NCBI GenBank assembly: GCA_023663145.1
Contig: JAMPHZ010000006.1
Location: forward strand, 1 to 64,000
DNA from: Odoribacter sp.
Lineage (GTDB): Bacteria > Bacteroidota > Bacteroidia > Bacteroidales > Muribaculaceae
Length of the DNA: 64,000 nucleotides
Direction: 5' to 3'
Shown: in pieces, positions 12,834 to 64,000 of the stretch
Layout of the letters: every line of letters begins with the position of its first letter
Numbering within the stretch: position 1 is the stretch's first letter
Position numbers and translations under genes: made by a program
Notes under the pieces: model-generated
What the model was told of the DNA's origin: nothing
What the model saw: the letters and a program-made list of their open reading frames with translations, nothing else
Database searches by the model: none

Positions 12834-13442
12834 ATGGACATAAAGAAATCAATGCGTGAGATACTTGAACGGGAAAGCCGTGCCATCGCTTCAATTCCCG
12901 TCACCGATGCCTATGAACGAGCCGTGCAACTTATAATAGAGCACGTGCACCGCCGCGGGGGCAAACTTATTACCTCCGGGATGGGCAAAGCCGGCCAGAT
13001 AGCCATGAATATCGCCACCACATTCTCATCAACAGGAACCCCGGCGGTAAACCTTCATCCAGCCGAGGCACAGCACGGCGATCTGGGCGTGATGCAGCCC
13101 AATGACATAATGCTTCTTATTTCCAACTCAGGCAAGACAAATGAAATAGTGGAGCTTGTAAATCTTGCCCGCGGGCTTGAACCAACTGTTCCCCTGATTG
13201 TTATTACAGGAGCACCCGACAGCCCCCTTGCCTCGCTGGCCGACGTGGCTTTGTATACAGCCGATGAGCCTGAGGTTTGTCCCCTCGGACTTACCCCCAC
13301 CACCTCGACAACCATGATGACCGTTATAGGCGACATATTGGTAGTCAGCGTAATGAAAGCCATAGGTTTTACCCGCACCGATTACGCCAGGCGCCACCAC
13401 GGCGGTTATCTGGGAGAGGCCGCCCGTGGTGACAATCATTAA
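12834..13442 (+). CDS. kdsD: D-arabinose-5-phosphate isomerase, SIS domain only
   Basis: Sugar isomerase of about 202 residues that should make arabinose 5-phosphate for Kdo, a core sugar of lipopolysaccharide. The SIS domain motifs are clear: SGMGKAGQIA, HPAEAQHGDLG, ISNSGKTNEI and LGLTPTTSTT, the last typical of KdsD/GutQ. It lacks the two CBS domains present in E. coli KdsD; single-domain versions are known in Bacteroides. The open frame reaches back to 12786 inside the previous gene, but the ATG at 12834 gives the usual N-terminus. It is followed after 12 bases by a PfkB-fold gene. Confidence 0.88.
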   Translation: MDIKKSMREILERESRAIASIPVTDAYERAVQLIIEHVHRRGGKLITSGMGKAGQIAMNIATTFSSTGTPAVNLHPAEAQHGDLGVMQPNDIMLLISNSGKTNEIVELVNLARGLEPTVPLIVITGAPDSPLASLADVALYTADEPEVCPLGLTPTTSTTMMTVIGDILVVSVMKAIGFTRTDYARRHHGGYLGEAARGDNH

Positions 13443-13454
13443 ACATGATGCATC

Positions 13455-14363
13455 ATGAATAAAATCATATGTATAGGCGAGTGTGCCCTGGATATAGTAT
13501 TTGAAAACGGACAACCGGCCGGTTCAATGCCCGGCGGCCGCATAGCATTGGCCGCAGCACGGCTCGCACGGTTGGGATTACCGGTGGAAATGGCATCGGA
13601 AGCGTCACGTGACCCTGTGGGTGACATGCTCGTAGACTATCTCACCGATGCCGGCGTCAACTGCACCGGCGTTGACCGCTTCGTTGACGGCCACTCCCCG
13701 TTGTCGGTTTTCACACCCGCCCCCACTGATGGCGGCTATGAGCTTACGCGATATGAGGCTTACGGTGACGGCGGTTTCGACATAATATGGCCACGCGTCG
13801 ATGATAAAACCATTGTGGTGTTCGGCGGCTACTACGCCCTTGACGCCCGCATGCGTGACCGTCTTACAGCATTTTTGAACAACTGCAGCGAGCGTAAGGC
13901 CGTGATGGTGTATGTGCCGGGCTTCCGTGCCGACCGCGAAAGACGCATGACGCGCGTGATGCCTGCCATACTTGAAAACCTGGAGATGGCCGACATGGTA
14001 ATCGCCCGCAACAATGACCTGCAACTCATATTCGGCACACCTCAGGGAGACCGGTGCTATCGCGACCATGTTGACTTCTACTGCCGTTCGATGGTAAATG
14101 TTGACACGGCATGCCACTCCATCAACTATTTCAGTGGCAAGGAAGTGACACAGGTGGCCATACCCGCCGACGTGAGCGAGACTATCCTGTGGAACGCAGG
14201 AATCATAGCAGGCACCGTGGCTCAGATCTACAAACTCAGCCTCTCACCAGAACAACTCAATGCCCCGGCCGAAGATGTGCGCCGCGAGATACTTACAGCG
14301 GCTGCCCGCGAGGCAATCGCTGCGGCTGCTGACTTCAGCTTCCAGTGGCAAAGGAAAATTTAA
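13455..14363 (+). CDS. PfkB-family sugar kinase fold, catalytic motif lost
   Basis: A 302-residue ribokinase-fold protein. The N-terminal motif IGECALDIVFENG, the GG at SMPGGRIALAAARLARLG and the ASRDPVGDML segment are typical of PfkB kinases. At the C-terminal signature, where active members read DTxGAGD followed by AxxAG, this protein reads SETILWNAGIIAG (residues 241-253): the anion-hole Gly-Ala-Gly and the catalytic Asp (A248 here) are absent. It is therefore probably not an active kinase of the usual kind. It sits between kdsD and ribH. It could be a regulatory pseudokinase or bind a sugar without phosphorylating it. Confidence 0.75.
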   Translation: MNKIICIGECALDIVFENGQPAGSMPGGRIALAAARLARLGLPVEMASEASRDPVGDMLVDYLTDAGVNCTGVDRFVDGHSPLSVFTPAPTDGGYELTRYEAYGDGGFDIIWPRVDDKTIVVFGGYYALDARMRDRLTAFLNNCSERKAVMVYVPGFRADRERRMTRVMPAILENLEMADMVIARNNDLQLIFGTPQGDRCYRDHVDFYCRSMVNVDTACHSINYFSGKEVTQVAIPADVSETILWNAGIIAGTVAQIYKLSLSPEQLNAPAEDVRREILTAAAREAIAAAADFSFQWQRKI

Positions 14364-14386
14364 GAGCTTGAAAAATTATATCAGCA

Positions 14387-14881
14387 ATGTCATCAACCTT
14401 ACCCAACAGCATTCCCAATCCATTCAATGCCGATATTGACGGAGACGTGCGTGTGGCGATAGTAGCCGCCGAATGGAATGGACATATCACCGGCGCCCTA
14501 ACCGACAGTTGCGTCAACACACTGCATAGCCACGGACTTGGCGACGACCTTATCGACGTATACCATGTGCCCGGAGCCGTAGAACTAACCTTTGCAGCAA
14601 GCCAGCTTGTTGAATCAGGAGCCTACGACGTAATCATCACTTTCGGCTGCGTGATTCGTGGCGGCACTCCTCATTTCGACTATGTATGCCAGAGTGTAAC
14701 CCAGGGCATAACCCATCTTAACGCCGAGTGCGACATACCCGTGATATTCGGGGTGCTCACCGTAGACACCGAGCAGGATGCTCTTGACCGCACCGGAGGA
14801 CCGGCCGGTGACAAAGGAGCCGAGGCGGCCGAGGCGGCCTTAAAGATGTACACTTTTGCACAAAAGGTCAAAGATCTGTAA
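14387..14881 (+). CDS. ribH: 6,7-dimethyl-8-ribityllumazine synthase
   Basis: Penultimate enzyme of riboflavin synthesis; it condenses a ribityl uracil with dihydroxybutanone phosphate and usually assembles into 60-mer shells or pentamers. 164 residues. Landmarks: VAAEWNGHIT near residue 25, VPGAVELTFAA, FGCVIRGGTPHFDYV (with the catalytic His in HFDY), FGVLTVDTEQDALDR. The first 18 residues are a short extension. No riboflavin operon or FMN riboswitch is nearby. Confidence 0.95.
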   Translation: MSSTLPNSIPNPFNADIDGDVRVAIVAAEWNGHITGALTDSCVNTLHSHGLGDDLIDVYHVPGAVELTFAASQLVESGAYDVIITFGCVIRGGTPHFDYVCQSVTQGITHLNAECDIPVIFGVLTVDTEQDALDRTGGPAGDKGAEAAEAALKMYTFAQKVKDL

Positions 14882-14885
14882 CAGT

Positions 14886-15335
14886 ATGCATATGTTCAAG
14901 TATATAACCTGCATAATCATAGCGTTATGCGTAATTACAGGCAGCGTCTCATGCACAGGCGGCAAAGACATTGATCCAGTTGAGCGTGTTGCCGCCATGC
15001 TCAGAAGCGGAAACGCAGAGGATGCCCAACGCGACTGCGACCGGCTGCTTGCCGACACGACCGCGTTCAATGCGCTGAGCGCCGGGCAACTGTGCCGTCT
15101 CGCCCTGGTTTTCGTATCCTTCACAGGTGACCAAGAGTCAAATGACGGTGCCGCAGTGAGATGTCTCAACCGAGCCCGCTCACTGAACAATGACTCAGTG
15201 GAATCATTTCTGCTTGAACTCAATGACGTCTACGGCGGCCATCTGGTCACACTTGACCGCGTGGGCACCTACCTTGAGATACCCCGCGAGGAACTCGTGT
15301 CAGCAGAAGACGTCCAACCCGACTCACTTAACTGA
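14886..15335 (+). CDS. Small predicted lipoprotein, unknown function
   Basis: About 149 residues. After a short hydrophobic leader (YITCIIIALCVITG) there is a lipobox-like VSC with acidic and polar residues after it. The mature protein is mostly helical (RVAAMLRSGNAEDAQRDCDRLLAD, CRLALVFVSF), similar in feel to a TPR-like pair, but I do not recognise a family. Starts at 14886 or 14892 are equally good. It follows ribH by 4 bases and precedes the SUI1-like gene by 4 bases, so it lies within one transcription unit. Confidence 0.6.
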   Translation: MHMFKYITCIIIALCVITGSVSCTGGKDIDPVERVAAMLRSGNAEDAQRDCDRLLADTTAFNALSAGQLCRLALVFVSFTGDQESNDGAAVRCLNRARSLNNDSVESFLLELNDVYGGHLVTLDRVGTYLEIPREELVSAEDVQPDSLN

Positions 15336-55573: not shown

Positions 55574-55606
55574 TTTGGCCAAGGGCTGCCACAGGTTGTA
55601 ACTTTG
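55574..55606 (+). promoter_or_regulatory. Promoter of the acidic-membrane/FHA operon
   Basis: TTTG at 55574-55577 and TAACTTTG at 55599-55606 with a 21-base spacer, a full match. About 35 bases of leader precede the ATG at 55648. Confidence 0.87.
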
Positions 55607-55647
55607 CATTGTAAGTTAACAACCACGACAACCCAAAACAAAATAAT

Positions 55648-56574
55648 ATGAGCACAACAGACGGAACAATGCCCTTGGGCTCCTATCAGGAAAACTCGCA
55701 GGAACAACCCCGCGATCCACAAAAAAATAATACCACGGCGGCGGCAGCAGGAGTCACCGGTGTAGCCGCAGCGGGCCTCGGTGCTGCCGGCATCTACGCT
55801 TATAACGAATATAACAAAAGCGCCGACGAAGAACTCGAGATAATACTTGATGACGAGGAACTGCTTGAGGATCCAAACGATGAAGTTGAGGTTGAGATAG
55901 AACACAATCCCGCTGTATCGCATAATACAAGCGTAAACCGGACTAGCACTGGCGCCCCGCAGGAGACGACCACCACTCCTCCCTCCACACATCAGACCCA
56001 GACTCCCCCGGCCCACACTCCCGGCACTCCCGCAACCCCTATAAATCAGACCACGGAACCACCCGTCGAGCAGCCAACCACTCCCACATCTCCCACATCT
56101 CCGACCCAACCCGTGGAGCAGCCCGTAAATCCTCCCGTGGAGCAACCTGTCGAGCCTATAGATCCTGTTGTAAATCCTCAGATTGAAGTTGCCGAAGATC
56201 CAGATGACATTGCAGAAGCACTGATATCAGTGGAAGAAATAGACCCTGAGGACTTCGACGGCACACAACCTTTCGCATTCACAAGCGTCGAGACCGTCTA
56301 CGACATCGACGGCAACGCCACCACATCAGCAGAATATATTGATCAGAACGGCATGACAGGTGTGATGGTCGATCTTGACGGCGACGGCGTATTCGACATT
56401 CTCACCGAAGACACAGGAGCAATGTACACCATCGAAGACTCAGAGACATTCCTTACCGTAGGTGATGCAGAATATGATGTCGAGACCGGCTACATAGCTT
56501 ACGACGAAAATCAGGACACTATGATTGATGATGATCCTATGGATGACATCATCGACACCGAGGACTTCGCATGA
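55648..56574 (+). CDS. Membrane protein with Pro/Thr-rich linker and acidic Ca-motif tail, unknown
   Basis: 308 residues, no signal peptide. A polar N-terminus (1-29), an Ala/Gly-rich hydrophobic stretch (about 30-52), a strongly acidic segment (DDEELLEDPNDEVEVEIEHN), a Pro/Thr/Gln-rich linker with repeated PVEQP (about 100-180), then an acidic domain. In the last part DLDGDGVFDIL (near residue 247) looks like a calcium-binding DxDxDG loop, with DIDGNATTS and DENQDT as further candidates. I do not recognise the family. It shares layout and acidic phrases (DDIEVEIEEP against DEVEVEIEHN; EEIDPEDF against IDPEEIDLEDI) with the gene at 57247. Its stop overlaps the FHA gene start. Confidence 0.6.
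   Translation: MSTTDGTMPLGSYQENSQEQPRDPQKNNTTAAAAGVTGVAAAGLGAAGIYAYNEYNKSADEELEIILDDEELLEDPNDEVEVEIEHNPAVSHNTSVNRTSTGAPQETTTTPPSTHQTQTPPAHTPGTPATPINQTTEPPVEQPTTPTSPTSPTQPVEQPVNPPVEQPVEPIDPVVNPQIEVAEDPDDIAEALISVEEIDPEDFDGTQPFAFTSVETVYDIDGNATTSAEYIDQNGMTGVMVDLDGDGVFDILTEDTGAMYTIEDSETFLTVGDAEYDVETGYIAYDENQDTMIDDDPMDDIIDTEDFA
56040..56175 (+). repeat. Coding tandem repeats (PVEQP-type linker)
   Basis: Within the linker of the gene at 55648. The nine-base unit TCCCACATC occurs twice in tandem near 56085-56102, and the unit CCCGTGGAGCA (or close variants) recurs four times over about 100 bases, coding for PVEQP. Such repeats can change copy number between strains. Confidence 0.6.
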
Positions 56575-57200
56575 CGGCCATGGCACCACTACAGGCTTAC
56601 AAAGTAGCACAGTGCCCCGGCTGCGGCAAGCGGTTCAAAGTACTGCATCCCGGAGTCGAAGGTATTCGCACATATACCTGCTCGGCATGCGGCAAAAAAT
56701 TCAACGTGAAGTTCGAGGCTCTCTCCCAATCTGCGGAGTCCGCCCAGACGTCTGCTCCGGCCCAAGGGATAAAGGTTGCCACAGCCAAGAAAAACGATCT
56801 CACCCAAAAAACAATGATGATCGGAGCATTTGACCCGTCATGGAGCGTGGTCACAACCCCGGCTCAGGCAGTGCTGAGGGTAACCATGCACCGCAAGTTC
56901 CTGCCGGCTACTGTCAAGACATTCAATCTAAACGGGTACGGCTCATGGACTATAGGGCGCAGCGACTCCTCGCAACCCAGCGACATATCGATCACAGGCG
57001 ATGATTCCGTGTCACGCCGCTGCGCAGTCATTGAGACTACCATGGATCAGTCAGGCGCCGTATTTTTGCTCAAAGTAGTCAAAACACGCAACCCCATATT
57101 CATAAATGGCCGTAAAATGGCCAACGGAGAAAGCATTCAACTGCAATTCGGCGACACCATTACCATGGGCAAGACATCAATGACATTCTCCAACAGATAA
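56571..57200 (+). CDS. Zinc-ribbon plus FHA domain protein
   Basis: 209 residues, cytoplasmic. N-terminal zinc ribbon with CPGC...CSAC (C15, C18, C37, C40), a variable linker (50-100), then an FHA domain from about residue 100: WTIGRSD (G129, R130), DDSVSRRCA (S148, R149, R150), IFINGRKMANGE. The canonical His after SR is Cys151 here. FHA domains bind phosphothreonine, so this protein would read Thr phosphorylation. It lies between the two acidic membrane proteins with a four-base start overlap on the upstream side. The zinc ribbon may bind nucleic acid or a partner protein. Confidence 0.88.
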   Translation: MTAMAPLQAYKVAQCPGCGKRFKVLHPGVEGIRTYTCSACGKKFNVKFEALSQSAESAQTSAPAQGIKVATAKKNDLTQKTMMIGAFDPSWSVVTTPAQAVLRVTMHRKFLPATVKTFNLNGYGSWTIGRSDSSQPSDISITGDDSVSRRCAVIETTMDQSGAVFLLKVVKTRNPIFINGRKMANGESIQLQFGDTITMGKTSMTFSNR

Positions 57201-57246
57201 CAAGCAAACCCACCTTTCACCTCACCGACTCTAACAAAGACACGAA

Positions 57247-58017
57247 ATGGACAACAAAAATACATTGCATCCCGACAGTTCCGCTCCGGCCCGCAAGCCC
57301 GCCACCGACGAGCCCGAGATGGAAATTATCGAGGAACCCAGATCAGGTATCAACAAACGGGCAGCGGCTGTAGCCGGAGCGGTTGTAACAGCAGCCGGCG
57401 GAGCGGCATTCGCAGCACACAACTCTAATGACAGCTCCGACGAGATCACATCCATTGAATTCGATGATGACGACGATACTTACGATGACATTGAAGTCGA
57501 GATAGAAGAACCAACCACCCCGGCGTCCACACATAACCGCCGCGAAACACCTCACACTGAGACATATAACGGCGACTCCACCTCAGAAACGGTATCCACT
57601 GCAGAAGAACCCCCGCATAGCGAGACAGAATCACAGGAAACAATGACCACGGAAGAGGCCGGCGAGGGATCAGGAGAAGATATTAAATTCTCGAACGGCA
57701 ACAATTACGAGACACTTGACAGTGGCCACACCACATCTAACGAGCAAGAAGACATCGAAGTGGTAATCCCCGAAGACATCACCGGTATAGATCCTGAAGA
57801 AATTGACCTCGAAGATATTATCATTGAAGAAGACCCGGAGATAATCCTCGGTCAGGATGATCCCGAGATAATAGAAGATGATCCCTTATTGGGTGGCCTG
57901 GATGGAGAGGACCCATCAACCTGGGGCATAGACCCCACCGACCCATTAACAGACATTGAATATAATACCGGAGATGACATCGACATCGATACCGACATAG
58001 AGTACGGTGATATATAA
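57247..58017 (+). CDS. Acidic membrane protein, paralogue-like of the gene at 55648, unknown
   Basis: 256 residues. Charged N-terminus of 35 residues, Ala/Gly-rich hydrophobic segment (AAAVAGAVVTAAGGAAFAAH, about 39-58), then a long tail extremely rich in Asp, Glu, Thr and Ser (calculated very acidic), with no clear domain. Repeated phrases such as EDPEII and DIDTDIEY occur. Layout equals that of the gene at 55648 but without the Pro-rich linker and Ca-like loop. No known family. A long acidic tail could bind cations, basic proteins or be a substrate for kinases (inference). Confidence 0.6.
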   Translation: MDNKNTLHPDSSAPARKPATDEPEMEIIEEPRSGINKRAAAVAGAVVTAAGGAAFAAHNSNDSSDEITSIEFDDDDDTYDDIEVEIEEPTTPASTHNRRETPHTETYNGDSTSETVSTAEEPPHSETESQETMTTEEAGEGSGEDIKFSNGNNYETLDSGHTTSNEQEDIEVVIPEDITGIDPEEIDLEDIIIEEDPEIILGQDDPEIIEDDPLLGGLDGEDPSTWGIDPTDPLTDIEYNTGDDIDIDTDIEYGDI

Positions 58018-58047
58018 CAAACAGATAATCTGATAAAAACCTTAAAT

Positions 58048-59577
58048 ATGAAAGCAATAACCCGTCTACTGGCAGCTCTCGTTCTCCTCTCTCCCCTTGG
58101 CGCGGCGAGCATCCATGCCTCCGACCCCGTCAGCCGCGACAGTATAATGAATGTCGTACATGCGGCCGAAGCATCTAACCCCGAGGCCCTGAACATTCTT
58201 GGCACCTGGTACTACATGGGTGAGAATCTATCGCAGGACTACTCTCTCGCCGCACGTATGTGGGCAAAGGCAGCATCAATGGGTAATGTTGCCGCAATCG
58301 GCAATTTAGGCATGTGTTACCAGTACGGTCAAGGCGTTGAACGCGATTCAATAAAGGCCATGGGACTGTACACCAAGAGCTTGCGTGCAGGCAACCCGGA
58401 ACTGATGGAATCACTGCGGCATCAGGCCGACTCCGGCTCGTCATTCGAATGCGCCGCCATGGGACACTTCCTTACCGAAGGGATCGGCTGTAAACGTGAC
58501 TATCCCGCGGCAGGCAGATACTACGCAGTCCTGGCAAAACGCGGCGATGTAGAAGCAATGCGCGACGCCGGCCTCGCTTTCCTCAACGGCAAAGAGTACA
58601 AAGATGCACTGAAGTGGTTTAAGAGCGGAACAGAACAAGGCAACATCACATGCACATATTACTACGGCTCAATGCTGGTTGACGGCCTCGGCACCGAAGC
58701 CAACCCTTCCCGCGGTTTCGTCTACGCACTCAAAGCAGCTGAAGGCGGCCTCGCCAACGCACAATACCTCGTATCTCGCCTCTATCGTGAGGGACGCGGA
58801 GTGGCGGCATCGGCCACAGAAGCCGACGCATGGCTTGGAAAAGCAGCTTATAAAGGTCTTGCCAAAGCAATGTTTGAATATGGATTGCTCGCAGCATCAA
58901 AGAATGACTTCATTGTAGCATCTTACATGTTCTCATGGCTCAACAACCGTCGTTCTTTCGTGCCGCAGATGAAATCTCTTTTCACTCCCACCGACACAGC
59001 AAACATCCTTGACACTCCGTTCGCCCACTTTGCCATGGCTGTCAAGGCCATCAACGCCGGGGATTTCAAAACCGCCAGAAATGAAATAAAAGCGCTCAAA
59101 AAAGGCAAAGGTCCATACGTTGAAATACTTGAGGCACAGATACTCATGAGTCCGCTCAACGAGAAACGCGACATAAAGAAAGCCGTCAAGCAACTTACCA
59201 AACTTGCCGAGAAAGACGACTACGCCCGACTGCTGCTCGCCAGAATCTACGAACGCGGAACCGACGGCATCGATGTCGACACAGCCATAGCCCGCCAACT
59301 GCTTGAGACAGCCGCTGACAACAACTTCTACCCCGCAGTCATAGCCCTGGGCAACGACTATTACGAAGGTCTTTTCGGCATTCGCGACTACAGCCTGGCT
59401 GTCGATTGCTATCGCCGGGCATATAATGAAGGCTGGCTGCTCGCCGACGCCGCATCACGCTTTGCCACATGCCTCGATGAGGCTCAAGGCACCGTACTCA
59501 ACCCATCCCTCGCCTCCAAGATCAACAGCCAGAAGTACCCCGCCGCCCTGACGGACTTCACAGCGCTGATTCCCTGA
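58048..59577 (+). CDS. Secreted Sel1-like repeat protein
   Basis: 509 residues with a signal peptide (ATG at 58048, LLAALVLLSPLGAASIHA). The rest is a solenoid of Sel1-like TPR repeats of about 36 residues, for example LNILGTWYYMGENLSQDYSL, IGNLGMCYQYGQGVERDSIK, TCTYYYGSMLVDGLGTEA, AQYLVSRLYREGRGVAAS and YEGLFGIRDYSLAVDCYRRA. Sel1 proteins are adaptors for protein complexes, often in secretion or signalling. Last gene of the operon starting at 55648, followed by a terminator. Confidence 0.88.
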   Translation: MKAITRLLAALVLLSPLGAASIHASDPVSRDSIMNVVHAAEASNPEALNILGTWYYMGENLSQDYSLAARMWAKAASMGNVAAIGNLGMCYQYGQGVERDSIKAMGLYTKSLRAGNPELMESLRHQADSGSSFECAAMGHFLTEGIGCKRDYPAAGRYYAVLAKRGDVEAMRDAGLAFLNGKEYKDALKWFKSGTEQGNITCTYYYGSMLVDGLGTEANPSRGFVYALKAAEGGLANAQYLVSRLYREGRGVAASATEADAWLGKAAYKGLAKAMFEYGLLAASKNDFIVASYMFSWLNNRRSFVPQMKSLFTPTDTANILDTPFAHFAMAVKAINAGDFKTARNEIKALKKGKGPYVEILEAQILMSPLNEKRDIKKAVKQLTKLAEKDDYARLLLARIYERGTDGIDVDTAIARQLLETAADNNFYPAVIALGNDYYEGLFGIRDYSLAVDCYRRAYNEGWLLADAASRFATCLDEAQGTVLNPSLASKINSQKYPAALTDFTALIP

Positions 59578-59599
59578 ACGCTCGTTCTCCTCTCTTGAC

Positions 59600-59635
59600 G
59601 CCGCCATGGTTTCACATTGAAGCCGTGGCGGTTTT
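59600..59635 (+). terminator. Terminator of the FHA/Sel1 operon
   Basis: Nine-pair stem (59601-59609 with 59623-59631, one T-G pair), 13-base loop, then TTTT. It starts 23 bases past the Sel1 stop. Confidence 0.75.
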
Positions 59636-59699
59636 CCACGTCAGCCACCTCTCCGGCGAATGCTGCTTAATGTAAAAATTTTTCATTGACTGCTTAATA

Positions 59700-59731
59700 T
59701 TTGCAAATCAGCGTTAAATTATCTACCTTTG
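59700..59731 (+). promoter_or_regulatory. Promoter of the WG-repeat lipoprotein
   Basis: TTTG at 59700-59703 and TACCTTTG at 59724-59731, 20-base spacer, full match. The leader to the ATG at 59763 is about 25 bases. Confidence 0.88.
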
Positions 59732-59762
59732 TGGCATTCAATCATTAACCAAATAAATTCAC

Positions 59763-61547
59763 ATGAAAATATCAAAATGTATCCTTGCAGCAGTCATAGC
59801 TACAACAGCCCTCGCCATGGGCAGCTGCAGCTCATCAGGCGGTGACTCATTAGTTGACCGGATTGATTACCTGGCTGTGCGCGAAAGCGACAATTCTGAC
59901 TGGGGTTTCTACTCTCCCGACGGCGAGATAAAATTTGCCGACGAATTCAAAAACCGGCCGTCATCCGTTGTCGAAGGTTATTTCTCTGTAAAAGAAAACG
60001 ACGGTTATTCACTCTATAAGTTCGGCGACAAACTCGAAGTCGTTAAAGACGCCGAAGGCCTTCGCGCCGTTGGATACATGGTTGATGGCCTTATCCCTGT
60101 TACCGTTCCCAAAGAACGCATATCTGTCATTGATGGCTCAGGCAAGAAAAAGTTCACACTTGATCCCATAGGTGGCAAAGAAATAGTAAGCGCTGGCGCA
60201 GGCTTCTGCGACGGACTGCTTATGGTCAAAACCGAAGAAGGCAACTATGGTTTCGTGAATACCAAGGGTGAGGTAGCAATCAAGCCCAAGTACTCTGAGG
60301 CCAACAATTTCAACGAAGGCTACGCACTTGTAGGCACTTATAACAAAGACAAGGATGAGACAACCTTTATGGTGATTGACAAAAAAGGCGAGACCGTATT
60401 CACCCTGCGCAAAGGCATGAAACCCAACGCCGAAATGTTCAATTCAGGGTTACTTGCCGTACGCGACAGCAACGACCGGATAGTATTCCTCGACACCAAA
60501 GGTGAAGAAGTATTCAAATGCCCATCAAAAGTCAAGCATGTAAGAGATTACGACAATAAATACATCGTATTCATCGGAGATGACTATAAAGACGGAGTGA
60601 TCGACTTTGAAGGCAACACCATCATCCGTCCGAAATACGAATCAATCCAGATCATATCGACCGGCTCATTCCTCGCATCCCAGGAAGACCGCGCCGTAGT
60701 GCTGAATGCCGATGGAGAGGAGACACTGCGCATCGATGATTACGAAAGCGTGTCCTGGGTAGGCAAATTCGGCTATCTGGCAGAGGAACGTCGCACCAAG
60801 TGCTTCCTTGACAAGGAAGGCAAGCCTGTGAAGAACGCTGAGTTCTACCGGGTGAACATAGACCCGTCGGCTGATGCATTCCTGAATTCCGACTATTTCA
60901 ACACCGAAGCAGTGGTAAAAGACGTGTGCTCTCTCATTACCGACAAAGGTGTTGACAAATATGTAATAGGTGAAGGCCCCGGTGCTCATTTCTCAAATCC
61001 GACCGACTATACATACCGCTCGCAGGTACTCATAGACGATCTGTCAAAACAGGGTTACCGATATTCAATCAGCGTATATGCTGAGTTCAACATGTCAATG
61101 GCTGACTACAGCTACAACTTCAACGGCTATGACTACCAGCGCAACGACTACTGGCGCGAAGGCTGCGAACTATATTCAATGCGATTCTCCATCAGCACCG
61201 AGACCGACTGGGGCAACAGCGGCTCTGAAGCCATCGTATCGCAACTCAAAGACAATGGCTTCAAAATCGCGGCCCAGACTGAAAAGGGTACTTCCACCTA
61301 CGCAGCCCTGCTCACCAAAGGCGACCTGATCGTACTCGTAAACAGCGAGAAGGGTTCCACCACCGGCAACGTAGCCGTGGCCAAGAGCGAGCCTTCGCTG
61401 ATTGATAACATCAAGAGCAATATCGACTACGTAAACCGGACAGAAAAAGGAAGCTCAGATGAAGAAGTGGCAATTGTTGAAGACTATGATTACGCCGACT
61501 CATGCGCAGTTGAGGTTGAGGAAGTAGTTGCCGAAGATTACTACTGA
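59763..61547 (+). CDS. WG-repeat lipoprotein
   Basis: 594 residues with lipoprotein signal ending ALAMGSCSSS (Cys22). Residues 45-370 contain WG-like repeats, for example DWGFYSPDGEIKFADEF, YGFVNTKGEVAIKPKYSEA, DGVIDFEGNTIIRPKYES and GYLAEERRTKCFLDKEGK, each with a Gly-Phe turn and a Lys/Pro strand. The C-terminal 200 residues are a separate alpha/beta part without recognised family (YRYSISVYAEFNMSMADYSY) and the tail is acidic. WG proteins are surface or periplasmic beta-propeller-like binders. Own promoter; not in the FHA operon. Confidence 0.85.
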   Translation: MKISKCILAAVIATTALAMGSCSSSGGDSLVDRIDYLAVRESDNSDWGFYSPDGEIKFADEFKNRPSSVVEGYFSVKENDGYSLYKFGDKLEVVKDAEGLRAVGYMVDGLIPVTVPKERISVIDGSGKKKFTLDPIGGKEIVSAGAGFCDGLLMVKTEEGNYGFVNTKGEVAIKPKYSEANNFNEGYALVGTYNKDKDETTFMVIDKKGETVFTLRKGMKPNAEMFNSGLLAVRDSNDRIVFLDTKGEEVFKCPSKVKHVRDYDNKYIVFIGDDYKDGVIDFEGNTIIRPKYESIQIISTGSFLASQEDRAVVLNADGEETLRIDDYESVSWVGKFGYLAEERRTKCFLDKEGKPVKNAEFYRVNIDPSADAFLNSDYFNTEAVVKDVCSLITDKGVDKYVIGEGPGAHFSNPTDYTYRSQVLIDDLSKQGYRYSISVYAEFNMSMADYSYNFNGYDYQRNDYWREGCELYSMRFSISTETDWGNSGSEAIVSQLKDNGFKIAAQTEKGTSTYAALLTKGDLIVLVNSEKGSTTGNVAVAKSEPSLIDNIKSNIDYVNRTEKGSSDEEVAIVEDYDYADSCAVEVEEVVAEDYY

Positions 61548-61590
61548 TCCAGTCCTGAGCAGACGGCTGACTGACATAACAGGCCAACGA

Positions 61591-61630
61591 CATCAAGGGG
61601 CGCCCGGTTCCACATGGGCGCCCCTTGATG
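61591..61630. other. Intergenic hairpin, strong stem without T-tract
   Basis: Perfect 15-base stem (61591-61605 with 61616-61630) and 10-base loop, 43 bases after the WG gene. The following CAAGTGACAC has no T-run. It probably ends the WG transcript or protects its 3' end. Confidence 0.65.
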
Positions 61631-61649
61631 CAAGTGACACATAACCTTT

Positions 61650-61665
61650 TGGCACGGTTTTTGTT
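61650..61665 (+). promoter_or_regulatory. Candidate sigma-54 promoter of the slyD-like gene
   Basis: TGGCAC at 61650-61655, five bases, then TTGTT at 61661-61665. It matches the -24/-12 consensus TGGCAC-N5-TTGCW at all but one base (T for C at 61664), with the exact GG-N10-G spacing. Transcription would start near 61676, 13 bases before the ATG. No TAnnTTTG is visible for this gene. Confidence 0.55.
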
Positions 61666-61688
61666 ATTATTCATAAAAACAATATATT

Positions 61689-62264
61689 ATGGAAAAGATT
61701 GAACCCGGAAAATATGTAGAGATGGTCTATGACCTCTTCAAAGTAAATGATGATGGCACCGAAGAACTTGTACACCAGGTAGATGCCGAAGACCCGGAAG
61801 GCGTGATATTCGGTGTTACCCCCGGCATCGTCACACCGCTTGAAAAGGCCCTCGAAGGCCTTTCGGAAGGTGACACTTTCGATGTAGTCGCACAACCCGA
61901 GGAAGCCTACGGTCAGCGCAGCGATGAATTTCTTGTAACTCTTGAAAAAGACATATTTGAAATCGACGGCAAATTTGATCCCGAAGTTGTGAAAGTGGGT
62001 GCCGTATTGCCCATGATGACACAAGAAGGATATAAAATCAACGGCGTAGTATACAAAGTTGATGACAAAACCGTGACCATGGATTTCAACCACCCGCTTA
62101 CCGGCAAGGTAGTGCGCTTGCGCGGCAAAGTCACCACAGTGCGCGATGCCACTCCCGAAGAAATAAAACTCACAACCGAGGGAGGCTGTGGATGCGGTTG
62201 CTCAGGCAATTGCGATGATAATGAAGGATGCCAGGGCGGATGCCAAGGCGGCGGATGCTGCTGA
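61689..62264 (+). CDS. slyD: SlyD-like FKBP peptidyl-prolyl isomerase with metal-binding tail
   Basis: 191 residues, cytoplasmic. FKBP domain blocks VFGVTPGIVTPLEKAL-like (FGVTPGIVTPLEKALEGL), GDTFDVVAQPEEAYGQ, and an insert domain (EFLVTLEKDIFEIDG...GAVLPMM), then NHPLTGKVVRLRGKV. The last 25 residues are Gly and Cys rich (GGCGCGCSG..CQGGCQGGGCC), as in SlyD tails that bind nickel, copper or zinc. It acts as chaperone and prolyl isomerase. The symbol is by family likeness. Confidence 0.9.
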   Translation: MEKIEPGKYVEMVYDLFKVNDDGTEELVHQVDAEDPEGVIFGVTPGIVTPLEKALEGLSEGDTFDVVAQPEEAYGQRSDEFLVTLEKDIFEIDGKFDPEVVKVGAVLPMMTQEGYKINGVVYKVDDKTVTMDFNHPLTGKVVRLRGKVTTVRDATPEEIKLTTEGGCGCGCSGNCDDNEGCQGGCQGGGCC

Positions 62265-62290
62265 TAATCCATCTGCAAATAACCATATAA

Positions 62291-62319
62291 TGGCGTGCCG
62301 TCACAGGCGCGCCATTTTT
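62291..62319 (+). terminator. Terminator of the slyD-like gene
   Basis: Nine-pair stem (62291-62299 with 62306-62314, one T-G pair), six-base loop, then TTTTT. It overlaps the -33 region of the next promoter. Confidence 0.8.
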
Positions 62320-62351
62320 GTTGCATGATTGCGAAAAAAATCGTAACTTTG
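62320..62351 (+). promoter_or_regulatory. Promoter of the PP2C gene
   Basis: TAACTTTG at 62344-62351 is a perfect -7 element; GTTG at 62320-62323 (one mismatch) is 20 bases upstream. The leader to the ATG at 62397 is about 40 bases. Confidence 0.75.
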
Positions 62352-62396
62352 CCGTGAACTGCTCCGCGGTTTTCCAATCATTTATGCAACAGACTC

Positions 62397-64000
62397 ATGG
62401 CTGCTAAATCTATAACCCTAAGGCTTGTCGCTTTCTCAGATGCCGCAGGTAAATTTGAACCTGACGCTCCCCTCAACGGTAACGAGGACAACTTCTTCAT
62501 CGATGATGACCTGACAGATAATGTATCGGGGCCAACCCGCATGGACACCCCGGTGCCGTTGGGCGATTATGGCTGTATAATGGCCGTAGCCGACGGAATG
62601 GGAGGACAGAACGCCGGCGAAGTGGCATCGGAAATCGCCGTCGACACTATTGCCGATCTATTCTCGCGCGACCGACTGACACCTCAGATCATAGCCTCAC
62701 CTCAATCACGGGCCGAATATATAAAACAGACCATTATAGAGGCTGACCGTCGGGTGAAAGCCGGCGTTGAAGGCCACCCCGAACGAGAGGGAATGGGCTC
62801 GACAATCATCATAACATGGATCATAGGAGATGAAATTTCAGTAGGATGGTTAGGAGATTCCCGGGCCTATCGGTTCAATCCGCGATACGGACTTAAACCG
62901 ATATCCAAAGACCACACTTACGTGCAGGAGCTGGCCGACAAAGGCATTATCACTTATGATGACACCTTCGGACATCCTCAGGGAAATATAGTCACCCGAT
63001 CGCTCGGTGACCCAGGCATCGCCCCTCTCCCCGAATGCATTAACTCTAAAATATACAGTGGCGATGTGATAATGATGTGCAGCGATGGCCTAAGCGGAGT
63101 GGTCCCCGATCGGCCTATGCGCGGAATAAGCGACTCCTTAGAAGGCATAATGGCCTCAAACTATGACAACCTGTCACAGATGCGCGCCGAACTCATGGAT
63201 GCCGCCAAACGCCAGCATTGGTATGACAATGTCACAGTACTCCTCTGCCGACTTGACGGAAACCTACCCGCCCCTCCTAAAGCGAAAAAATCAACCACAG
63301 CCGCCGTTACCGGCGATGCCACAAAACCGGCAGTGCAATCTGCGCCCGGGAAAGACAACAACAAGAAAATCCTTATCGGCATAGTCGCCGCAGTGCTCGT
63401 CGCAGCGGCAGTGGCAGTAGGAATAAAATTCCTCAATACCGATACAGAACCAAAATTCTCCGAATCCGAGGAAATAGAACTGAAAGCTTCTCCACAGATT
63501 GTGGAAGGGCAAACCGTCAATCCGGCCGAGAATCCCGAGGCGCCCATGCCCAAAGCCCCGGTAAACATTCCGCATCAACAGGCCGGCCCGCCCGCACCGG
63601 CAACAACCACCACTCCTCCACCCACCGAGGAACTTGCATCGCCACAACATGAGGTTGCGACTGTAGCACAGGAAGAAGAAGCGACACCCGCCACATCGGC
63701 CATGAAAGAAGCAATAGACTGGAAAAACAATCTCGTGAAACGTCTGGTTAACTTCAGCACACAAGTACCATTATGGGAAAAGAACATTTCAGAACTCACC
63801 ACTGAAATCAACAAAGCGCCCGCCGATGCTGATGAGAAAACCAAGAACAAGTTAAGACAACGCGTCACAGCACTTGAAAACCGGCTTCCGCTATACCTCG
63901 AACTTGTGACGATGAAAGGTAAAATGAGCGACGCGTCACTCAAAAAGAAAGTCGACGAACTGCTGCCGAAACTTCCTGGCATGTCAATCGACAAGATCAA
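62397..64000 (+). CDS. PP2C-family Ser/Thr phosphatase with membrane helix, cut by window end
   Basis: At least 534 residues; the frame is open to the last base. Residues 1-288 form a PP2C domain: GNEDNFF (D31), AVADGMGGQNAGEVAS (D66, G67), GSTIII, VGWLGDSRAYRF, DHTYVQELADKGII, GNIVTRSLGD, MMCSDGLSG (D230) and WYDNVTVLL (D277); all metal-binding Asp are in place. A linker follows, then one membrane helix (about 323-346), a Pro-rich stretch (355-420), and a coiled-coil region at about 430-510. This topology puts the phosphatase in the cytoplasm with a large periplasmic part. The natural partners are Ser/Thr kinases and FHA proteins; an FHA gene lies 5.8 kb upstream. Confidence 0.92.
   Translation, partial: MAAKSITLRLVAFSDAAGKFEPDAPLNGNEDNFFIDDDLTDNVSGPTRMDTPVPLGDYGCIMAVADGMGGQNAGEVASEIAVDTIADLFSRDRLTPQIIASPQSRAEYIKQTIIEADRRVKAGVEGHPEREGMGSTIIITWIIGDEISVGWLGDSRAYRFNPRYGLKPISKDHTYVQELADKGIITYDDTFGHPQGNIVTRSLGDPGIAPLPECINSKIYSGDVIMMCSDGLSGVVPDRPMRGISDSLEGIMASNYDNLSQMRAELMDAAKRQHWYDNVTVLLCRLDGNLPAPPKAKKSTTAAVTGDATKPAVQSAPGKDNNKKILIGIVAAVLVAAAVAVGIKFLNTDTEPKFSESEEIELKASPQIVEGQTVNPAENPEAPMPKAPVNIPHQQAGPPAPATTTTPPPTEELASPQHEVATVAQEEEATPATSAMKEAIDWKNNLVKRLVNFSTQVPLWEKNISELTTEINKAPADADEKTKNKLRQRVTALENRLPLYLELVTMKGKMSDASLKKKVDELLPKLPGMSIDKI

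Follow-up and report, generated by a model that had tools for sequence, protein, structure and literature searches.

Do the genes at the end of a 64,000-nucleotide stretch of Odoribacter sp. DNA encode a single phospho-signalling system at the cell envelope? This stretch, hereafter the window, is C38:1-64000 (contig JAMPHZ010000006.1, in a 2.25-Mb genome of 41 contigs), and its span from 55574 to 64000 encodes two acidic membrane proteins (ACID1 and ACID2), a zinc-ribbon FHA protein (FHAzr), a secreted Sel1-repeat protein, a WG-repeat lipoprotein, an FKBP, and a PP2C phosphatase. An original prediction, made from the letters of the sequence, had read these genes as one locus of this kind; all of them are present where it had placed them, and Pfam matches confirmed the FHA, Sel1, WG, and PP2C assignments. 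Based on the analyses below, the acidic/FHA/Sel1 operon (55.6-59.6 kb) is probably part of a conserved envelope signalling module of the Bacteroidota, a judgement that we make jointly with the mechanism proposed in the Discussion.

A recurrent gene cluster with FHA proteins, a caspase, a phosphatase, and kinases

The FHA protein served as the single query sequence against 197 Muribaculaceae genomes, and further loci came from a caspase-profile scan of named genomes and an order-wide sample, in which the caspase-anchored loci were picked by caspase similarity and not by neighbourhood. The cluster has a recurrent order: a LytTR protein (125 amino acids (aa)), a membrane FHA protein (215 aa, membrane-spanning and in many cases with a zinc ribbon at its C-terminus), a secreted C14 caspase (245 aa), an acidic protein, the zinc-ribbon FHA protein, a PP2C (∼305 aa), one or more kinases, and often a Sel1 protein. 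Near 35 FHAzr loci, genes for an acidic protein were found at 32, PP2C at 27, caspase at 25, kinase at 24, and Sel1 at 19, when the ∼3 PP2C and ∼5 kinase genes of the window's genome would place ∼1 such neighbour by chance among 35 loci. The gene immediately 5' of FHAzr (n = 99) encodes an acidic protein in 63 cases and a caspase in 21, and the gene immediately 3' encodes a PP2C in 70 and a kinase in 13. Viewed from the caspase, 75 genes in named genomes had FHAzr (51), PP2C (49), or kinase (54) genes nearby; the weaker caspase matches (L166, L167, L169, and L170) stand without the gene set. Conservation of the genes together in relatives, which the original prediction had set as its own test, was therefore found: in many genomes PP2C and kinase genes accompany those for the FHA and acidic proteins.

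The cluster is found across the Bacteroidales, with records from Bacteroides, Prevotella, Butyricimonas, and Muribaculaceae, and, in a rearranged form, in other Bacteroidota (Saprospiraceae, Ferruginibacter, and Spirosoma). In Muribaculaceae the FHAzr cluster is repeatedly accompanied by the Sel1 protein, one of the two envelope partners originally proposed. Some clusters (L123, L132, and L109) array several kinases whose extracytoplasmic parts differ, as if many inputs led to one reader. Bacteroides-type clusters (L123:7450-8893; similar in L122, L132, and L134) also hold, between acidic genes, a conserved pair of secreted proteins, one of ∼354 aa with LRR_5 (BspA-like) repeats recognized by eye and one of ∼128 aa.

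In the window's genome, the genes of the module are dispersed over three contigs, C38, C12, and C18. The LytTR, membrane FHA, and caspase genes lie together on C12 (∼13044-14975; caspase PF00656, 5.5e-13), a second acidic-FHA-PP2C trio lies at C18:4599-7523 (L155), and a kinase of the module's glycine-rich loop type is on C37. In the nearest relative, G058, the LytTR, FHA, caspase, ACID1, FHAzr, ACID2, and Sel1 genes form one run (L013), which includes a counterpart of ACID2.

The residues expected of active enzymes are retained across module members. The caspases, whose domain matches PF00656 (Peptidase C14) at 8e-22 in L016, carry the His motif in 89/91 and the Cys motif in 90/91 proteins, together with a signal-peptide-like start (80/91) and an EF-hand-like loop (86/91). 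H-x-D-x-K is present in 111 of the 116 module kinases, 100 of which have a membrane segment, and the PP2C proteins retain the DGMG-type motif (78/81) and the GDS motif (81/81). In the FHAzr alignment C15, C18, C37, G129, R130, S148, and N174 are invariant, so that the Gly-Arg, Ser, and Asn ligand-binding positions are intact, and the GR...S pattern occurs in 85 of 87 FHA proteins. Each part of a kinase-PP2C-FHA module is thus represented, by a Hanks-type kinase, a PP2C with its metal aspartates, and an FHA domain with its phosphate-binding residues, and from their motifs the caspase, kinase, and PP2C appear catalytically intact.

Domains and topology of the acidic proteins

ACID1 has a short N-terminal tail, an Ala/Gly-rich transmembrane segment at about residues 30-49, and then the acidic part. 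Its conserved C-terminal domain bears the loop DLDGDGVFD (residues 242-250), which is of the DxDxDGxxD type, and some relatives have a second EF-hand-like loop in this domain; the acidic tails therefore carry calcium-type loops, and calcium binding is predicted. An AlphaFold model of the domain has a confident beta-rich core (predicted local distance difference test score ∼92). Against solved structures only the calcium loop was matched (E 0.015 or worse), Foldseek of the model returned nothing at E < 0.001, and neither Pfam nor NCBIfam contains a family for the acidic proteins, the C-terminal domain giving weak, chance-level matches only. The profile search that had been suggested for the 308- and 256-aa proteins thus yielded a family for neither. 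These two proteins had also been described as similar; they are so in architecture, and the C-terminal domain of ACID1 is not recognizable in ACID2.

In 107 acidic proteins, the 15 residues before the membrane segment contain 410 Lys + Arg and 169 Asp + Glu, compared with 75 and 444, respectively, in the 15 residues after it. By the positive-inside rule, this charge bias places the N-tail in the cytosol, and, on hydropathy and charge together, the acidic tails are probably periplasmic, opposite to the arrangement that the original prediction requires. Of the two roles first proposed for the acidic proteins, we favour that of membrane anchor for the FHA reader, whereas that of phosphorylated scaffold shifts from the acidic tails, predicted to be periplasmic, to candidate sites in the cytosolic N-tail.

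A threonine motif in the N-tails of acidic proteins

The sequence T-x-[FYLIV]-[DE] is present in 29 of 103 acidic N-tails, with 39 sites in all, compared with 6.6 ± 2.4 sites in shuffled tails (maximum 16 in 500 shuffles). The serine version occurs 3 times, compared with 4.9 in shuffles, the asparagine version is likewise not enriched, and neither is the threonine motif after the membrane segment (90 versus 95). The motif is enriched in the juxtamembrane stretches of the kinases (48 versus 26 ± 5). Examples from the tails are EDTVYD, EETRFE, and DETIFD, with up to 4 copies in one tail; the acidic protein at C18 begins MKSEDTIYDP and so contains the canonical motif (EDTIYDP), and in Bacteroides caecigallinarum ET21, where FHAzr is at L123:10890-11459, the acidic-tail peptide is TEDTVYDSNEKTQFDE.

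The FHA1 domain of Rad53 prefers Asp at the +3 position through Arg83 and also binds pTxxI (PMC4037201). A T-x-hydrophobic-D/E sequence in acidic N-tails matches this +3 ligand rule for FHA domains, suggesting that the short cytosolic N-tail of the acidic protein is the likely phosphosite. A basic residue 2-3 places before the conserved FHA Ser is found in 21 of 25 FHA proteins that occur with an acidic +3 motif and in 4 of 34 others (Fisher 2e-8); by our own alignment, this residue (in the beta4-5 loop) is at or beside the position of Rad53 Arg83. We regard the co-variation of the basic FHA-loop residue with the acidic +3 motif as suggestive only.

A kinase beyond the window and its sister module

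A kinase had been predicted just past position 64000, and an intact Ser/Thr kinase of 562 aa with a transmembrane segment (Pfam Pkinase, 1e-39) is encoded at C38:64086-65774, starting 86 base pairs (bp) beyond the window end and 40 bp after the PP2C gene. By reading, its AIK (catalytic lysine), HQDIKPEN, and DFG motifs are intact, as are NEDN, ADGMGG, GDSR, SDGL, and DN (the metal-binding aspartates) in the window PP2C. The kinase gene is followed by one for a secreted BACON protein (C38:65793-67415; BACON, 3e-11) and then by gapA on the opposite strand.

We first assigned this kinase to the FHA operon, but the neighbourhoods of its orthologues pointed elsewhere. Orthologues of the window PP2C, kinase, and BACON genes lie in a different cluster, made up of a zinc-ribbon FHA protein, a kinase-FHA fusion, an FHA-trypsin protein, PP2C, kinase, and BACON, and the window-kinase orthologues sit in this sister module in G149, G040, G181, G060, and G026. 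From these results, we assign the PP2C-kinase-BACON unit, which has a separate promoter, to a sister module. The acidic/FHA/Sel1 operon may be served by this kinase and PP2C, or it may not.

A complete relative of the sister cluster is present in the same genome on contig C3 (L008:495-12705). It encodes a zinc-ribbon FHA protein, a kinase-FHA fusion, an FHA-trypsin fusion, a 287-aa protein of no assigned type, a PP2C, an FHA membrane protein, a 1239-aa kinase with RHS-like repeats, and a BACON protein, and this larger type of phospho-signalling cluster is conserved in several Muribaculaceae. Its zinc-ribbon FHA protein (L008:11776-12705) contains a T-x-Y-E stretch, GGTVYENEAF, of a kind that is enriched in its class (7 sites versus 1.8).

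Transcription units and other genes of the span

The features of the span are listed in Table 1. The ACID1 and FHAzr genes overlap by 4 bp, and gaps of 46 and 30 bases separate FHAzr from ACID2 and ACID2 from Sel1, respectively. The whole window was searched for TTTG-N17-23-TAnnTTTG, a pattern that we take to be the Bacteroidota promoter, and 10 sites were found where 1.06 were expected by chance, which makes these sites a handy promoter marker across the window. With promoters ahead of the ACID1, WG, and PP2C genes and a terminator behind the FKBP gene, the span comprises three or more transcription units and not one.

Table 1. Features identified between position 55574 of the window and the end of the PP2C gene
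Feature	Position	Strand	Evidence
Bacteroidota-type promoter TTTG-N21-TAnnTTTG of acidic/FHA/Sel1 operon	55574..55606	+	pattern search
ACID1, 308-aa acidic membrane protein	55648..56574	+	open reading frame (ORF), alignment, AlphaFold model
FHAzr, N-terminal zinc ribbon and C-terminal FHA domain	56571..57200	+	Pfam FHA 6.6e-11
ACID2, 256 aa, second acidic single-pass membrane protein	57247..58017	+	ORF, hydropathy
Secreted Sel1-repeat protein	58048..59577	+	Pfam Sel1 8e-33
Bacteroidota-type promoter of WG gene	59700-59731	+	pattern search
WG-repeat lipoprotein	59763..61547	+	Pfam WG 3e-16
SlyD-like FKBP with Cys-rich tail	61689..62264	+	sub-cut-off FKBP matches
Strong terminator 3' of FKBP gene	62289-62316		
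Bacteroidota-type promoter of PP2C-kinase-BACON unit	62317..62351	+	pattern search
PP2C phosphatase with transmembrane segment	62397 to 64046 of contig C38, crossing the window end at 64000	+	Pfam PP2C_2 1e-10

The WG lipoprotein had been proposed as the other envelope partner. We considered it as a surface component and rejected it because its gene is conserved with neither module and is preceded by a promoter of its own; it is judged a neighbour outside the system. The FKBP protein has a weak Pfam match (E 0.006, below the Pfam cut-off) and matches two NCBIfam FKBP models at 2.9e-14 and 4e-9, both below their cut-offs. Its C-terminus is a Cys/Gly-rich tail, GCGCGCSGNCDDNEGCQGGCQGGGCC, that is presumably metal-binding, and its gene adjoins the PP2C gene also in G058 (L055), with no linkage elsewhere.

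Discussion

Building on the observed gene set, active sites, and motif enrichment, we propose a model of docking, gating, and function in which kinases with diverse extracytoplasmic domains would sense envelope conditions and phosphorylate threonines of the acidic protein's cytosolic N-tail and of their own juxtamembrane stretches. FHA proteins would then dock on the phosphothreonines to form a phospho-dependent complex at the inner membrane, which PP2C would reverse; the acidic protein's predicted calcium-binding periplasmic domain would relay the state of the complex to the caspase and Sel1 proteins in the periplasm, and LytTR would adjust transcription. We hold the module and this mechanism, as a whole, with moderate confidence. 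A stronger version, in which N-tail phosphorylation read by FHA alters the calcium-binding domain, licenses the secreted caspase, and feeds back through LytTR as a trans-envelope switch throughout the Bacteroidota, is offered tentatively and is doubtful.

Several points weigh against the proposed module and mechanism. Matches to the FHA protein are patchily distributed (40 of the 197 Muribaculaceae genomes), and in G058 the PP2C-kinase-BACON unit stands with the FKBP gene on a different contig from the acidic/FHA/Sel1 genes. The T-x-x-[DE] type of motif is confined to 29 of the 103 tails; many Muribaculaceae tails have T-x-x-[ILV] instead, a class that is moderately enriched (46 versus 29 ± 5), and the two acidic proteins of the window have at most this weaker form (TMPL in ACID1). 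The shuffles ignore the kinship of the sequences, and the co-variation of FHA loop and motif, reduced on the tree to 3 independent pairs, fails the phylogenetic control. Topology and signal peptides were assigned by hydropathy rules rather than by a trained predictor, and phosphorylation, binding, and protease activity are predictions from sequence.

The strongest rival is that the acidic/FHA/Sel1 operon, of the caspase-type module, and the PP2C-kinase-BACON unit, of the sister module, are chance neighbours with no signalling between them, and we give this close to an even chance. It is favoured by their separate promoters and the terminator between them, by the place of the window-kinase orthologues in the sister module, and by the presence of the other trio on C18 and the glycine-loop kinase on C37. 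On the other side, the operon is without the adjoining PP2C and kinase genes that occur in relatives, so that, if functional, it must depend on some kinase, and modules can share kinase and PP2C partners. The motif itself could also reflect ancestry or composition, with the acidic proteins acting in calcium buffering or adhesion and unconnected with FHA binding. The relatedness of the sequences, the DxDxDG loops of the C-terminal part, and the scarcity of independent co-variation pairs agree with that account, which we nevertheless find unlikely, as the motif is in tandem within single tails and specific for threonine and for the N-tail, and the acidic gene adjoins the FHA-reader gene in most clusters.

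Two further explanations concern what the module does. Known conflict systems use both caspases and Ser/Thr kinases as effectors (PMC7159879 and PMC8195603), and the patchy distribution, the tandem kinases, and the generic caspase and kinase matches in PADLOC would suit a role in phage defence or programmed cell death, with the kinases releasing a caspase as the executioner. The signal-peptide-like start of the caspase indicates that it acts outside the cytoplasm, PADLOC reports no system beyond those generic models, and no MoxR, vWA, or STAND component was seen among the few proteins that were scanned; we consider this explanation quite unlikely. In PADLOC the acidic, Sel1, and PP2C proteins had no match, and the FHA protein had a weak partial one at its zinc ribbon. 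It is very unlikely that the module switches a secretion apparatus by threonine phosphorylation, as PpkA-PppA-Fha does in type VI secretion, a pathway with which it shares the logic of kinase, PP2C, FHA, and a cytosolic membrane-protein tail (PMC3953482). A VipB (PF05943) search of the window's genome gave no match, although its E. coli positive control worked, and type VI membership was rejected on this ground; a PF17541 search was also silent in this genome, but so was its control. No secretion genes were seen in the annotated neighbourhoods, where unlabelled ORFs were scanned in part only.

The type VI system is nonetheless the closest parallel to the proposed docking, in that a Ser/Thr kinase, a PP2C, and an FHA reader are encoded together and, in Agrobacterium, Fha binds phosphorylated Thr14 in the cytosolic tail of the membrane protein TssL (PMC3953482). 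Docking of a reader on a phosphothreonine of a bitopic inner-membrane N-tail, demonstrated for TssL, is what we infer for the present module, which differs from type VI in having a secreted caspase-like peptidase, LytTR, Sel1, and an acidic calcium-loop domain. The catalytic domains also resemble Stk1/PknB-Stp1-FHA signalling (PP2C to the Stp1 model, 2.8e-46; kinase to the PASTA-kinase model, 1.3e-35; both sub-cut-off), whereas the kinase has no PASTA match and the module has varied extracytoplasmic domains and a dedicated acidic membrane partner. Like prokaryotic metacaspases and orthocaspases, the module caspase has a C14 domain, a His-Cys dyad, and an EF-hand-like loop, and it differs from known metacaspases in its signal-peptide-like start and its fixed tie to phosphothreonine signalling; the gene set is absent from the descriptions in a 2012 survey of metacaspase operons (PMC3501461). 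As far as the portion of Kaur et al. 2020 (PMC7159879) used here goes, GAP1-N2 GTPase-centric systems likewise have a kinase fused to a zinc ribbon or membrane helices beside a PP2C, but they are actinobacterial, contain a GTPase and vWA, and are described with no caspase or acidic FHA partner. MoxR, vWA, GTPase, and STAND domains were absent from the proteins run against Pfam, which is not a systematic scan of the neighbourhoods.

Kinase-PP2C-FHA signalling is already known, and its combination with a caspase and an acidic protein is apparently undescribed. No account of the combination turned up in the open-access literature, nor in the consulted portions of two papers on conflict systems from 2020 and 2021 (PMC7159879 and PMC8195603); because subscription papers lay outside the search, "undescribed" is provisional.

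The searchable papers say little about Ser/Thr phospho-signalling in gut Bacteroidota, and in the recurrent cluster a writer, an eraser, and a reader, with a candidate docking motif, are linked by gene order to a secreted protease of the caspase type. If the proposed mechanism is true, these bacteria would signal across the inner membrane by means of a phosphorylated tail, and prokaryotic caspases, whose roles are largely unknown, would have a defined upstream control.

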